This document shows, one piece after another, positions 55,296 to 60,004 of a DNA stretch of 61,307 nt. Where the stretch lies: the NCBI GenBank assembly GCA_937951345.1, contig CALFCF010000022.1, positions 1-61,307 on the forward strand. The letters run 5' to 3'. This DNA comes from an uncultured Granulosicoccaceae bacterium. Lineage in GTDB: Bacteria; Pseudomonadota; Gammaproteobacteria; Granulosicoccales; Granulosicoccaceae. The translations under genes were made by a program, and so were the position numbers. Numbering within the stretch: position 1 is the first letter of the stretch; each line of letters begins with the position of its first letter. The notes beneath the pieces are model-generated. The model saw only the letters and a list, made by a program, of their open reading frames with translations. It was not told the DNA's origin and did no database searches.

Positions 55296-56033
55296 TCATT
55301 GCTTCGTGCGCTTTTTGACCACTTTTTTAAGCGGATTGAGGTTTATTTCGTTGATGACGCTGTTATCTGGTGCTGAGAGTAGCTGCAGTACGCACGCAGC
55401 AACAGTCTCCGGATCAATCGCATGCGATGCTTCTTCCCCGGGCTGAAAAGACAGGTTTTCAAAAAAAGTGGTGCGAGTCATGCCGGGATTGATAATCCCG
55501 ACGTGGCAGTTGGAAGCGCTGCATTCGTATTGTAACGATTGCGCAAAACCTCTGAGGCCGGCTTTGCTGGCACTATAAACGGCGCCGTATCTGCCGCCCG
55601 CCAGTGCGTTTTCTGACCCTATAAAAACTATATCGCTGCGCTCGCGTGATTTAAGGGCGGGTAACAGATAACGGCAGAGCAGCACATTAGATAGTAGATT
55701 GACCCCAATCAGTTGCTGAATCTGGTCAGATGAAAATTCCTCGAGTGACCCGAATCTGCCCTGGCCCGCACAGCAAATCAGAGCATCGATGGCGTGCGTT
55801 GCCACTATCTCTTTTATACGAGGCTCTATACTGGACAAGTCTTCTAGATCCAGCGAATACATCGTTAGCTCGGGTGAATCTTCGCTATTGGAAAGCTGTC
55901 GTTGTGTATTCAAACTGCCTGAACGGCTTAGGCCCACCACTTGATGCCCATGGTTGGTCAGTTCATAACAAATAGCGGCACCGATACCGCGACTGGCGCC
56001 GGTCACGAGGATTGTTCGCTGCTTATCCTGCAT
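55296..56033 (-). CDS. Short-chain dehydrogenase/reductase
   Basis: A 245-residue classical SDR. NAD(P) motif TGASRGIG at 11-18, CAGQGRFG in place of NAG at about 88-95, catalytic S140, Y153 and K157 (YSASK), and NPGMTRT after the active site. The substrate cannot be inferred. Its start overlaps the stop of the SPL-like gene by 11 bases, so it is the third gene of a tight operon: nucleosidase, radical SAM enzyme, SDR. Confidence 0.88.
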   Translation of the reverse strand: MQDKQRTILVTGASRGIGAAICYELTNHGHQVVGLSRSGSLNTQRQLSNSEDSPELTMYSLDLEDLSSIEPRIKEIVATHAIDALICCAGQGRFGSLEEFSSDQIQQLIGVNLLSNVLLCRYLLPALKSRERSDIVFIGSENALAGGRYGAVYSASKAGLRGFAQSLQYECSASNCHVGIINPGMTRTTFFENLSFQPGEEASHAIDPETVAACVLQLLSAPDNSVINEINLNPLKKVVKKRTKQ

Positions 56034-57141
56034 GGTGATTGCTGTGATTGATCGGTTGGTCTGACGTATTTTTATTGGGTGATGGTGGTATCAACGAATC
56101 ATCACTGCAGACAAATAGTTGCTTTGCATCGACATACTTTTTTATTTCCTGTGAGCAAAAATCCATAAGACGTGTCTCGACTTGTCGTGGATAGCCAACC
56201 ATCGTTGAACTGTTGCCGTTGTCAGTAAATTTAAACTGCTCAAGTGGAACTGAAAATAACGGCTCTTCCGGGTAAAGCTGCTTGACGGCTTTATGGAAAG
56301 ATTTCGGTAGCCGGAAAGTTCCAAGACTTACCGAATGTATCTTTTCGCAATCGAGTCTGGAAAATACACTTTCAAACAATTCTCTGTACAGTGACTCGTC
56401 ATTGCCAGCGGCGATTACAGGGTCGAATCGCAGCCCAACCGACCATCCGGCTTCTTGCAAAGATGCCAGTGCCCGTATGCGTTTTTCAAGCGAAGGAGTT
56501 TTGTGTTCCAGTTTATTTACTATGCTGTGTGGTGAAAGACTATAAGCAACCACCACGTTGTCTAGTGGATTCCGATTAAGCAGTGAGCGAATTTGTGTGC
56601 TTTTCGTTCGAATTTCCAGTCGAGCCTTATTGTCGTTCTGCGCATTTAGAATTTCGAAATGATCTAGACACTGCTGCATAAAGCCTGTGATTGGCTCTAA
56701 GGCCAGTGAATCGCAGTCGTAGCCGGAGAAAAACCAGCAGGGTTTGTCAAATTGCCGGGCTGTGGATGCAATTTGATCAAAGAAATCGGAATAGTTGGTG
56801 AACACCACATAGTTTGCCGATTGATACATGCCCTGCAAGAAGCAGTAGCGACAGTCGTATATGCAATTTAGCATATGTGAAAAATAGTAGTTAAAGTCAC
56901 CGCCAATATGATAAGCAGGTGGTGTTGGCAGCACATGCTGTTGATGCTTGCGCGCCAGAATCAATGAGGGTTTTTGTTTTTGTAATCGGAAGTTTTGGGA
57001 GCGAGGATTAAATACTTCACTGTATCGATCGATTTCGATGACGTTGGTAGGCGTCGAATTGGTGCGTTCGATAGATGCCAATATGGATCGTGTAACTGGA
57101 TCGTCGATAGCATCCCGCTCTATGTAAACAGTATCAATCAT
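56023..57141 (-). CDS. SPL-family radical SAM protein (spore photoproduct lyase-like)
   Basis: A 372-residue radical SAM enzyme. The [4Fe-4S] cysteines are C93, C97 and C100 in LNCIYDCRYCFLQG. Family motifs are FFSGYDCDSLALEPITG and VAYSLSPHSIVNKLEHKTPS, with SVGLRFDPVIAAG near the middle, as in spore photoproduct lyase and its homologues in non-sporulating bacteria. The UV-lesion repair role is not shown for these homologues, and the cysteine that donates a hydrogen atom in Bacillus SPL could not be placed with certainty. It follows the nucleosidase gene by nine bases. Confidence 0.88.
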   Translation of the reverse strand: MIDTVYIERDAIDDPVTRSILASIERTNSTPTNVIEIDRYSEVFNPRSQNFRLQKQKPSLILARKHQQHVLPTPPAYHIGGDFNYYFSHMLNCIYDCRYCFLQGMYQSANYVVFTNYSDFFDQIASTARQFDKPCWFFSGYDCDSLALEPITGFMQQCLDHFEILNAQNDNKARLEIRTKSTQIRSLLNRNPLDNVVVAYSLSPHSIVNKLEHKTPSLEKRIRALASLQEAGWSVGLRFDPVIAAGNDESLYRELFESVFSRLDCEKIHSVSLGTFRLPKSFHKAVKQLYPEEPLFSVPLEQFKFTDNGNSSTMVGYPRQVETRLMDFCSQEIKKYVDAKQLFVCSDDSLIPPSPNKNTSDQPINHSNHHAG

Positions 57142-57150
57142 GTTGGCAAA

Positions 57151-58101
57151 TCATACATCTGACGTGGGTGGGGCATCTTTACTGGTGATTTTATCGTCTG
57201 TGTGTTGCGGATATTCGGGATAGGCGTCAGATAAATGGTTTTCCAGAAAAACTATCAGTGAGCGAGTATTTGCTAACGCTTCATCAGGTAGTTTTGATGG
57301 TATTTCCCTGTTTAATACGGAGTGTCTTGCGCACAATGCAGTCAGTTGTTGTGTTTGAGAAGCTGTTACGTGCAATGGCTTTCGGTCTGTGCCCGGTCTT
57401 GACTCCATTCTTAATGTATTCGTGTTGTCCAGAAGTGTATTAAGTAAATCTTCGTGATCGTCATTTAAAGAGATGGTTGAAGGTAGTTTCGTTGTCAGGT
57501 GTTGTACGGTGTTCGAAAACTCGGTAATCCCGGGTATATTTCGTTCAACTAAATCGTTAATACTATTTGGATTGATCAGTGACCTATTTAAAGATCCGTC
57601 TCTGTCGTAGAGGCAATTGTCCGGATTATCAGAAATTATTTTCAGACAGTGCGCAAATTCAGCGGACACATAACGACGGGCTGTCGCAACCACTGCAGCC
57701 GCCTCCATATCATAAGCGATATTTCTCTGATACGCCGTCGATGGTTGATCAACCGTCTCGACACGGATGCCGGGTATTTTTCTGACAAAAGGCAGTGATG
57801 GATAAATAACTTTATTACCGTCTGAAATACTGTGAGCGTGGAACATACTACCCGTGGGTTGATCGGAGCCAGCAATACCAACATTCATTACGATTGCCTC
57901 TTTGTTTAATCTGGATAGAGCATGTGCTGTAGCTGCGGCTGCGTTTAGTTTACCGATGCCGGTAATGATCAATTGAATTGTTCCGTCGCCATACAGACGA
58001 AAACCCCGGCCACTGGTGTGTTTTAGCGAGTAATGTTGTATCAGTGGTTGCGCTTCAGCTTGCAGGGCAGTTACAAAGAGTAGGGTGGTGGCGTCTTGCA
58101 T
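57151..58101 (-). CDS. MTA/SAH-nucleosidase-like protein with C-terminal extension
   Basis: A 316-residue protein. Residues 5-165 resemble purine nucleosidases of the MTAN/futalosine hydrolase type: E16 in the QAEAQ turn, TGIGKLNAAAA, NVGIAGS, the ribose-binding YDMEAAAV (E133) and the catalytic IISDNPD (D158). The region usually between GIAG and the MEA motif is shortened. Residues 185-316 are an unrecognised mostly polar extension. MTAN enzymes can also split 5'-deoxyadenosine, a by-product of radical SAM enzymes, which would fit its place upstream of the SPL-like gene. Confidence 0.75.
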   Translation of the reverse strand: MQDATTLLFVTALQAEAQPLIQHYSLKHTSGRGFRLYGDGTIQLIITGIGKLNAAAATAHALSRLNKEAIVMNVGIAGSDQPTGSMFHAHSISDGNKVIYPSLPFVRKIPGIRVETVDQPSTAYQRNIAYDMEAAAVVATARRYVSAEFAHCLKIISDNPDNCLYDRDGSLNRSLINPNSINDLVERNIPGITEFSNTVQHLTTKLPSTISLNDDHEDLLNTLLDNTNTLRMESRPGTDRKPLHVTASQTQQLTALCARHSVLNREIPSKLPDEALANTRSLIVFLENHLSDAYPEYPQHTDDKITSKDAPPTSDV

Positions 58102-58212
58102 GGTTAAACGACTTGTTAATCCTGTATCGTGCGTGCTGCTGTGCTGGTCGCGGTAATGCGACGAAAAAAATCTCTGCTGTACAATAGAGTCTTATCTACC
58201 GGGGATGCAACC

Positions 58213-58551
58213 ATGCTCGTATCAAATCTTGAGTTTTTGCCTGACAGAACAATCGATAGCCACCTGGGCCTTGTGCAGGGCAGTTCCGTACGCAGTAAGC
58301 ATGTCGGTCGCGATATGATGGCCGGGCTGCGAAATATCTTTGGCGGCGAATTAAAAGGATATACCGAACTGCTGCAGGATTCCCGCAAAGAAGCGATGGA
58401 GCGTATGCTGAAGCAGGCGGAGTCCATAGGTGCTGACGCAGTTCTTAATATCCGGTTTTCAACGTCCAGTATTACTGCAGGTGCCGCAGAAATCTATGTT
58501 TATGGTTCGGCGGTTAAATTGGCACCTAAAACCGGCGCTCCATCAAGCTGA
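58213..58551 (+). CDS. YbjQ family protein 1
   Basis: About 112 residues from ATG 58213, with GGGG eight to eleven bases upstream; the frame stays open 28 codons further. It matches the YbjQ/DUF74 family, often annotated as heavy-metal-binding: start LVSNLEFLPDRTIDSHLGLV, the region KHVGRDMMAGLRNIFGGEL and the terminal GADAVLNIRFSTSSI with ITAGAAEIYVYGSAV. These are pentamer-forming small proteins of unknown role. It is followed 17 bases later by a second, membrane-anchored paralogue. Confidence 0.9.
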   Translation: MLVSNLEFLPDRTIDSHLGLVQGSSVRSKHVGRDMMAGLRNIFGGELKGYTELLQDSRKEAMERMLKQAESIGADAVLNIRFSTSSITAGAAEIYVYGSAVKLAPKTGAPSS

Positions 58552-58567
58552 CTGACGGGGCAAGCAC

Positions 58568-59071
58568 ATGATTGAAATAGGCATATTTCTGATACTTTTG
58601 GTTTGCGGTTACCTGTTTGGTAGTCTTGCGGAAAAGCGCCACTACCGATCGATCATAAAACGTGAAGCTGAACTGAATTCATTGCCGGCAATAGCCAGCC
58701 GCTATCCTGCGACGGATAAATGCTACCAGCAACATCTTGTATACGGTGGTGTTGTGGTTGCATCAGATTACTTTAAGTCGTTTCTCGCAGGTCTGGTTAA
58801 CTTTTTCGGTGGAGCGGTTGTTTCATACGAATCGTTGATTGATCGAGCAAGACGTGAAGCAATGTTGCGTATGAAAGCCGAAGCCAAAGCTAAGCAGGCT
58901 GAACTGATATTCAACGTTAAATTTGAAACCATGACCATCGGTTCCGGTCGGCTCGCATCGGTTGAGGTGCTTGCTTACGGGACGGCGTTGGTTCCGCAGA
59001 TACCATCAGATCCACCGGTTATAACTCCACAGTACGCACGTATACTCGCGCTGAATCCGAGTCAGGCTTGA
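58568..59071 (+). CDS. YbjQ family protein 2, membrane-anchored
   Basis: A 167-residue paralogue of the preceding gene with an N-terminal helix (residues 3-20, EIGIFLILLVCGYLFGSL) and then a polar YbjQ-type domain: VYGGVVVASDYFKSFLAG, NFFGGAVVSYESLIDRARREAM, and ELIFNVKFETMTIG, ending VEVLAYGTAL. The linkage of two YbjQ genes and a membrane protease is recurrent in gammaproteobacteria as far as I recall, but its role is unknown. GGGG lies upstream of the start. Confidence 0.85.
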   Translation: MIEIGIFLILLVCGYLFGSLAEKRHYRSIIKREAELNSLPAIASRYPATDKCYQQHLVYGGVVVASDYFKSFLAGLVNFFGGAVVSYESLIDRARREAMLRMKAEAKAKQAELIFNVKFETMTIGSGRLASVEVLAYGTALVPQIPSDPPVITPQYARILALNPSQA

Positions 59072-59143
59072 TCAACACTAACTTTGCGTTTTCAGCAGGC
59101 TCTTCGCAGAGATAGCGGGTGATTGCCTGCATTACCATTGTCT

Positions 59144-60004
59144 ATGGAATATCAGAACAAACAACCTGACGAAGGTGTCAATATCACACGGCACAATCCG
59201 GTAATTCACTTGCTGAAGTTATTGGTTGCTGCGCTGATTGTGATTGTGGTTCTTGTCGTTACTGTAAATATGTTCGCTTCGCGTGTCGGGCGCTCAGTGC
59301 CGTTCAAGTACGAATTGTCATTGATGAGTCACATTAACTATGACTTTGGTGGCAATGCATCTTCTGATCAGATGCAGACGTATCTGAGTGATCTGGCGAC
59401 ACGTTTGATGAGGCACATGAATATTCCAGAGGGAATGTCTGTGACGGTTCATCATAACCACGATGATGTATTCAATGCGTTTGCGACCTTAGGCGGAAAT
59501 GTGGTCTTTTATTCAGGTTTGTTAAAGAACCTGCCGCACGAGAATGCCATAGCAATGGTTATGGCGCATGAAATAGCTCACGTTCTGCACCGTGATCCTG
59601 CTGCAGGTCTGGGTGGTGGTCTTGCGACTATGATGGCCTTGATGGCATTAACCGGAAACGCCGGAACCGGAGCGGTAGGTAATGTTTTGAATCAAACCGG
59701 TGCAATAACGCAAACGAAATTCAGTCGTGATATGGAGCGTGCTGCAGATAACGCAGCGTTGGGTGCTGTTGCCATGGAGTATGGGCACGTAGCGGGTGCC
59801 AGTGAATTGTTCAAGGTACTTCAGAACAAAGTGTCCAGCTCGAACGGCGATCGTGATGATGAATGGTACGAAACGTTTATTTCCACTCATCCGCTTAATG
59901 TTGAGCGAATAAATTCCATACTAGATCTGGCGAGATACAACAATTGGCCGCTGGCGGGTGAGATAACGCCTCTGCCTGTCGGCTTTCATACCTGGTTGAA
60001 CTAG
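59144..60004 (+). CDS. M48-family membrane metallopeptidase
   Basis: About 286 residues from ATG 59144; a TTG seven codons upstream is possible. One N-terminal helix (about residues 25-45, LLVAALIVIVVLVVTVNMF) anchors a protease domain with the zinc motif HEIAHVLHRD (H142, E143, H146) and the third-ligand region SRDMERAADNAALGAVAM. M48 proteases of this type (HtpX/BepA-like) degrade misfolded envelope proteins or lipoproteins. It forms an apparent operon with the two YbjQ genes. The TAG stop lies within the adjacent element's end. Confidence 0.88.
   Translation: MEYQNKQPDEGVNITRHNPVIHLLKLLVAALIVIVVLVVTVNMFASRVGRSVPFKYELSLMSHINYDFGGNASSDQMQTYLSDLATRLMRHMNIPEGMSVTVHHNHDDVFNAFATLGGNVVFYSGLLKNLPHENAIAMVMAHEIAHVLHRDPAAGLGGGLATMMALMALTGNAGTGAVGNVLNQTGAITQTKFSRDMERAADNAALGAVAMEYGHVAGASELFKVLQNKVSSSNGDRDDEWYETFISTHPLNVERINSILDLARYNNWPLAGEITPLPVGFHTWLN

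Follow-up and report, generated by a model that had tools for sequence, protein, structure and literature searches.

The stretch of DNA analysed here, referred to below as the window, comprises 61,307 nucleotides of contig CALFCF010000022.1 of an uncultured Granulosicoccaceae bacterium. It carries, on its minus strand, an operon of three genes encoding (i) a compact nucleosidase of the 5′-methylthioadenosine/S-adenosylhomocysteine nucleosidase (MTAN) superfamily (57151..58101; 316 aa), (ii) a radical S-adenosylmethionine (SAM) enzyme with the fold of spore photoproduct lyase (SPL) (56023..57141; 372 aa) and (iii) a short-chain dehydrogenase/reductase (SDR) (55296..56033; 245 aa). An earlier annotation made from the letters alone (the sequence-only reading) had described these genes as tightly coupled, and their coordinates and strand were borne out: a gap of 9 bases (57142-57150) separates the nucleosidase and SPL-like genes, and the SPL-like and SDR genes overlap by 11 bases (56023-56033). 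Pfam assigns the nucleosidase to PNP_UDP_1 (33.7 bits), the radical SAM enzyme to SPL (70.2 bits) and the third protein to adh_short (139.3 bits, above the cut-off of 26.6 for this classical SDR profile). Of the NCBIfam families listed for them (for the third protein, the 25 best of 228), none is matched at its own cut-off. As shown below, the SPL-like enzyme, the nucleosidase, the SDR (or an aldo/keto reductase, AKR) and a glycosyltransferase of the GT2 family are co-inherited and partly fused.

Features of the three encoded proteins

The structural model of the nucleosidase (pLDDT, predicted local distance difference test, 85) is most similar to MTANs (1e-11, Foldseek), with futalosine hydrolase further down, and an MTAN is also the best match of its profile among PDB sequences (4e-9). 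Residues E16, E133 and D158, to which the sequence-only reading had drawn attention, are present and align with the catalytic residues of MTANs. Together with K154 and S157 they are invariant in 98/98 aligned rows (87 full-length proteins, 9 short ones, that of Fusobacterium, and the window protein P0001, which may also be among the 87). Seven genes, either partial or decayed, were excluded from this alignment. The protein shares its fold and the catalytic E/E/D with MTAN and futalosine hydrolase, but it is compact (117 residues from E16 to E133), carries an extra C-terminal helical domain (aa 209-316; 57154..57477, minus strand) and falls below the cut-offs of both. Its best NCBIfam match is futalosine hydrolase TIGR03664 (43.3 bits; cut-off 124.7), and it scores 24.4 bits against the MTAN equivalog NF004079 (cut-off 169).

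The model of the SPL-like protein matches SPL crystal structures over its full length (Foldseek; best E 1.4e-21, template modelling scores 0.75/0.82), the next-best fold following at 1.3e-5. Its best NCBIfam match, TIGR04070, reaches 108.4 bits of an equivalog cut-off of 400. The three cluster cysteines noted previously are in place within the CxxxCxxC motif (C93-x3-C97-x2-C100; codons at 56842..56865, minus strand). The "SPL motifs" of the sequence-only reading thus hold for the fold and the cluster, but not for the residues of radical transfer: the codons Y141-D142-C143 (56713..56721, minus strand) place a tyrosine at the site of the hydrogen-donor cysteine of Bacillus subtilis SPL (C141), with a cysteine two residues further, and Y99 of SPL is replaced by phenylalanine.

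Classical SDRs are recognised by the motif TGxxxGIG, a serine and the motif YxxxK. In the family of the window SDR, residues G12, G16-I17-G18, S140, Y153 and K157 are invariant across 15 rows.

Gene order, co-inheritance and gene fusions

Conservation of the three genes together had been set beforehand as the test that could refute their link, and the link was not refuted. The SPL-like gene was searched for in 57 genomes (including that of the window), 36 of which gave a match, and 30 loci, the window's own among them, were drawn. The nucleosidase gene lies directly upstream of the SPL-like gene in 30/30 of these loci, and the SDR gene directly downstream in 16/30. A scan of GTDB species genomes gave 568 confirmed stretches, the best 80 of which were used; they come from Granulosicoccaceae, Methylomonas, Methylobacter, a Nitrosomonas, Chromatiales, Thiotrichales and others. 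Both neighbours are present in 34 of these loci, only the nucleosidase in 16, only the SDR in 29 and neither in 1, where the counts take in nucleosidase genes that are incomplete or decayed (L066, L079, L103, L129), six loci with the SPL-like gene <700 bases from the locus start, and some genomes shared with the 30-locus set. One genome (G283; 5.1 Mb, 2 contigs) retains the nucleosidase gene ~430 kb away from the SPL-SDR pair, so adjacency is not required for the genes to be kept.

Co-inheritance was examined in 369 genomes of the class. SPL-like proteins (match at 1e-10) occur in 64 of them and form three groups: group 1 (~330 aa; 49 strong matches and G303, whose match is truncated at the end of a contig), group 2 (~425 aa; 10 genomes and G398, which has only a short fragment) and group 3 (373-396 aa; 3 genomes). 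The nucleosidase profile gave 58 strong matches (E<=2.6e-38), on which the co-occurrence count is based, and 15 weak ones. All 58 genomes with a strong nucleosidase fall among the 61 genomes with a group-1 or group-2 SPL-like protein, and no strong nucleosidase was found without one (58/3/0/308; Fisher p 1e-64, uncorrected for kinship). The three group-1/2 genomes lacking a strong nucleosidase are G086, G328 and G094 (82% complete). Group-2 genomes encode a short nucleosidase (~190-230 aa, without the C-terminal domain), which in most of the loci inspected belongs to a GT2-nucleosidase-SDR row; their SPL-like gene sits elsewhere or, in one case (L186), adjoins this row. A sodium:solute symporter-like gene (tested with Pfam in L208) was observed behind group-1 and group-2 SPL-like genes alike (L089:6983-8419, L184:7624-9072, L205:4345-5787, L208:3998-5437). 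In a phylum-wide draw of 398 genomes, no strong SPL match was found except in the window's own genome, and four were weak (1e-11 to 1e-15); the four-enzyme set may therefore be sparse beyond the families that the class draw covered.

An SDR ortholog (E<=6e-74) is present in 43/64 SPL-positive and 0/59 SPL-negative genomes, the best match among the latter being 3e-45; a search of ten further Granulosicoccaceae gave one match at this threshold. In the group-3 loci, the gene following that of the SPL-like protein encodes an AKR, probably in the SDR's stead (L177:5770-7859, L178:5320-7436, L179:5381-7602; assigned with Pfam in L177 and L179, and by likeness in L178). Since SDR and AKR occupy one place, these data suggest that carbonyl reduction is a step of the module.

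The sequence-only reading had missed a fourth partner, the GT2 glycosyltransferase. Its gene is located near the anchor gene in 46/120 loci (on the same strand in 45/46), in many of them upstream of the nucleosidase gene, and 15 copies share 52-63% identity with the first one. A search of the 369 class genomes gave 61 matches at 1e-50. Fifty-nine of these reach E<=6.8e-100, all in SPL-positive genomes, and the two remaining ones (6.7e-51 and 2.2e-52) are from SPL-negative genomes. The genome of the window carries GT2 on another contig (C43), unlinked to the operon. In Granulosicoccaceae without linked GT2, as on this contig (L235:4408-6363) and similarly in L236, the GT2 gene lies behind a further conserved gene, which on reading alone resembles those for aspartoacylase. 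Some loci contain, between the GT2 and nucleosidase genes, a gene for a protein resembling DSP/PTP-type (dual-specificity/protein tyrosine) phosphatases (L208:7258-7740 and, similarly, L089:4665-5147).

Two kinds of gene fusion were identified. In Fusobacterium vincentii (NZ_CP084075.1), a 623-aa frame joins a nucleosidase (family profile, 105 bits), which retains the catalytic E, E and D, to an SPL-like enzyme (265 bits), and is followed by an SDR gene (133 bits). This record (L217; 2.1 Mb) is filed as a plasmid, yet it is chromosome-sized, and it also encodes a classical MTAN. In three group-3 genomes (G110, G237, G339), a nucleosidase domain and GT2 form a single frame of ~495-500 aa. The nucleosidase part was matched by the profile in G339 only; in G110 it rests on a weak PF01048 match and reading, and in G237 on reading alone, both frames having surfaced only as ~500-aa GT2 frames.

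Conserved order, co-inheritance and fusion support a functional link between the nucleosidase, the SPL-like enzyme and the SDR. In this respect, and in the intact active site of the nucleosidase, the sequence-only reading is supported. The absence of the SDR gene beside the SPL-like gene in 14/30 loci of relatives would suit three unrelated housekeeping genes that merely share a transcription unit. Such a chance association is, however, hardly credible, as it is contradicted by the SPL-positive status of 58/58 nucleosidase-positive genomes, even where the genes are unlinked, by the nucleosidase-SPL and nucleosidase-GT2 fusions, and by the confinement of strong GT2 matches to SPL-positive genomes.

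Carriage of the set as phage or plasmid cargo was considered and rejected: the SPL-like protein matches only two unannotated phage-labelled faecal records and five plasmid records (one of them the 2.1-Mb Fusobacterium record), the nucleosidase (P0001) has no match among plasmid records, and no relative of the Fusobacterium fusion turned up in a scan of viral contigs. Divergently from the operon, positions 58129-60004 of the window contain a tandem pair of YbjQ-family genes and a gene for an M48 peptidase (Pfam); in relatives, too, the operon is flanked by genes related to these.

Radical-transfer residues and the fate of SAM

In SPL, C141 is the likely hydrogen donor, and the variants C141A and Y99F are described as releasing one 5′-deoxyadenosine per repair, i.e. 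as not regenerating SAM, in an account that treats SAM regeneration by SPL as not firmly established (PMC3742179). C141 and Y99 are given the same roles in PMC5368176, according to which the enzyme of Clostridium acetobutylicum uses C74. We inspected these positions in the relatives of the window protein. Group 1 (122 rows) has Tyr at C141 in 121 and His in 1, with Cys in none; Phe at Y99 in 121 and Tyr in 1; and Thr, Ala, Ser or Val, never Cys, in the column of the C74 type, while Y97 is kept in 122/122. Group 2 has Gln at C141 (10/10) and Ser or Thr at Y99, and group 3 has Glu and Phe, respectively (3/3). The SPL-like proteins of Fusobacterium and of a human faecal contig, the nearest relatives found outside the class, have Tyr at C141, but keep Y99. 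C143 was considered as a new universal hydrogen donor and rejected, as it is present in 119/122 group-1 rows, but replaced by Gly in 3 and by Thr in Fusobacterium and the faecal contig. SPL has a DNA-binding hairpin, which looks shortened in these proteins; this was not used as evidence.

Bacillus SplB (L218) and a cyanobacterial protein of the family (L219) retain C141, Y97 and Y99. In a tree of 38 sequences, SplB groups with the Gloeothece protein (support 1.00), groups 2 and 3 group together (0.98), and group 1 is joined by Fusobacterium and the faecal contig (0.94). The latter (L220; MT835514.1, 23482-34435), labelled phage, may be bacterial DNA; in it, an SDR gene and an SPL-like gene of this kind are separated by the gene for a 160-aa protein, whose sole likeness, which is non-significant (E 0.11), is to the C-terminal part of the nucleosidase.

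SplB (PF20903, TIGR04070; PDB 4fhg and 4k9r) shares with the window enzyme the full-length fold, the cluster motif and Y97, whereas the latter lacks C141 and Y99, scores far under the equivalog cut-off and is encoded in an operon with a nucleosidase, an SDR and, often, GT2. The TIGR03886 family of SPLs from non-sporulating bacteria (e.g. Gloeothece), also within PF20903, keeps C141, Y97 and Y99; the window protein scores 44 of the required 437.55 bits, and no nucleosidase is annotated near the Gloeothece gene. The fold, the cluster motif and Y97 would be compatible with an SPL relative that repairs UV or other photolesions in a bacterium forming no spores. This role, proposed in part by the sequence-only reading, is nevertheless very unlikely and was rejected on three grounds: (i) the residues, as both C141 and Y99, and hence the hydrogen-donor cysteine, are missing, and the score of 108.4 bits falls well short of the SPL equivalog cut-off, (ii) the habitat, as the nearest out-of-class relatives are from Fusobacterium and a faecal contig, i.e. 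from hosts without UV exposure, and (iii) the partners, which are a nucleosidase, a carbonyl reductase and a glycosyltransferase.

Given the reported effects of C141A and Y99F, an enzyme missing both residues is not expected to regenerate SAM, and the connection with 5′-deoxyadenosine chemistry made by the sequence-only reading appears sensible on these residues. One explanation, near to that of the sequence-only reading, is that the SPL-like enzyme abstracts hydrogen from a sugar- or nucleoside-type substrate, freeing 5′-deoxyadenosine, and that the dedicated nucleosidase destroys this inhibitor locally; the SDR or AKR would then reduce a carbonyl arising from the radical step, and GT2 would make or use the substrate. 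We regard this as the main rival of the pathway proposed below, possible, but on the doubtful side. The loss of C141 and Y99 predicts one 5′-deoxyadenosine per turnover, and this compound is described as an inhibitor of radical SAM enzymes (PMC8102628). An MTAN over the cut-off was found in 0/62 SPL-positive genomes, as compared with 5/70 SPL-negative ones. The remaining 65/70 SPL-negative genomes, however, also lack both such an MTAN and this nucleosidase; as they manage, ordinary radical SAM enzymes have no need of the latter, and the absence of MTAN does not decide between the explanations. Furthermore, Fusobacterium keeps its fused nucleosidase with E/E/D intact despite its own MTAN, i.e. 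although general removal of 5′-deoxyadenosine is already available, which favours a special substrate, and in three genomes the nucleosidase is fused to GT2 and not to the radical enzyme. Substitution for a missing MTAN as the nucleosidase's sole reason was rejected, since the lack of MTAN is common where the nucleosidase does not occur and Fusobacterium has both. In the search of SPL-positive genomes at the cut-off, no classical MTAN was seen in the window's genome; its only strong PNP_UDP_1 match (L001:1480-2232; G000:C5:26948-27667) resembles, by reading only, a methylthioadenosine/methylthioinosine phosphorylase.

A candidate biosynthetic pathway

In known sets of a radical SAM enzyme and a nucleosidase, the 5′-deoxyadenosyl radical is added to a substrate and adenine is removed afterwards, as with ArsS (arsenosugars) and MqnE/MqnB (futalosine), whose radical SAM families differ from that of the window enzyme. 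We propose, tentatively and at somewhat less than an even chance, that the operon belongs to a biosynthetic module of four enzymes, which would perform adenosyl transfer, adenine removal, reduction and glycosylation. The SPL-like enzyme would spend SAM stoichiometrically and add the 5′-deoxyadenosyl radical to an acceptor; the nucleosidase would take adenine off the adduct, leaving an acceptor-linked ribose; the SDR or AKR would turn the exposed sugar aldehyde into a polyol; and GT2 would glycosylate the resulting product. The joint inheritance of the radical SAM enzyme and the nucleosidase, with a reductase and a glycosyltransferase, is as expected of an adenosyl-transfer pathway. The conserved gene order, the fusions, the exchange of the SDR for an AKR, the loss of C141 and Y99 and the invariant active site of the nucleosidase also speak for it.

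The mechanism is suggested by the parallel with the assembly of hopanoid side chains, in which the enzyme classes follow one another in the same order: the radical SAM enzyme HpnH, adenine removal by HpnG, reduction of ribosylhopane to bacteriohopanetetrol, by an enzyme given as not yet established, and the glycosyltransferase HpnI (as outlined in PMC12583986). The present set differs in its SPL-fold radical enzyme and would use another acceptor. The arsenosugar glycosyltransferase TIGR04283 is among the weak matches of GT2, far below the cut-off (71.8 of 182 bits).

Several observations weigh against adenosyl transfer. HpnG and HpnH are absent from the NCBIfam matches (E<=0.1) of the nucleosidase and the SPL-like protein. 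The SDR ortholog is missing in 21/64 SPL-positive genomes, three of which have the AKR, and GT2 is missing in 5/64 (G094, G101, G232, G283, G335). A different cysteine donor may operate in groups 2 and 3: a group-3 cysteine falls on the site of the S76C mutant in one alignment, though not in the other. Moreover, L053, L079 and L061/L246 retain the SPL-like gene beside a nucleosidase gene whose catalytic half has decayed; a pathway step should not permit such a loss, unless another enzyme took over, whereas clearance of 5′-deoxyadenosine as a by-product would easily tolerate it in a few lineages if other enzymes remove the compound. These pseudo-nucleosidase genes lie between those for GT2 and the SPL-like protein (L053:839-1501, L079:1129-1791, L061:851-1504, the last being the same gene as L246:5253-5906). 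Their C-terminal domain is still recognisable, and as it is kept with the SPL-like enzyme despite the catalytic decay, it probably serves this enzyme.

The set could also hypermodify RNA or DNA bases, the SPL-like enzyme modifying a nucleobase and the other enzymes trimming, reducing and glycosylating the modification. The SPL fold binds thymine dinucleotides, and the set is chromosomal and conserved. This is improbable, however, since neither a nucleic-acid-binding domain nor a methyltransferase partner was recognised, and adenine removal by a small-molecule nucleosidase better suits free substrates. There was also no PADLOC match (0 families for 6 proteins) and no relevant or informative PHROG, and a defence system was likewise rejected. 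It is probable that the four enzymes build a sugar-like compound rather than repair DNA.

No title or abstract describing the four-enzyme set was found in the open-licence literature searched, subscription papers being mostly outside this scope. Generic family matches (SPL, phosphorylase superfamily, SDR, GT2) hide this co-inherited set, and its SPL-like member occurs in 64/369 sampled genomes of the class and in Fusobacterium. Still more tentatively than the module itself, we propose that this branch of the SPL fold has turned into an adenosyl transferase. It would stand at the start of an undescribed pathway, widespread in Gammaproteobacteria and Fusobacteria, that also employs the dedicated nucleosidase, either of two interchangeable reductases (SDR or AKR) and GT2, and that leads to a glycosylated C5-polyol conjugate. 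If adenosyl transfer takes place, the SPL fold would acquire another type of chemistry, its second, and methanotrophs, other Gammaproteobacteria and Fusobacterium would contain a metabolite yet to be discovered. If, instead, the nucleosidase clears the by-product, the set would clearly exemplify a radical SAM enzyme to which a 5′-deoxyadenosine hydrolase is dedicated and even fused. Under either explanation, such "photoproduct lyases" should not be counted as UV-repair genes.

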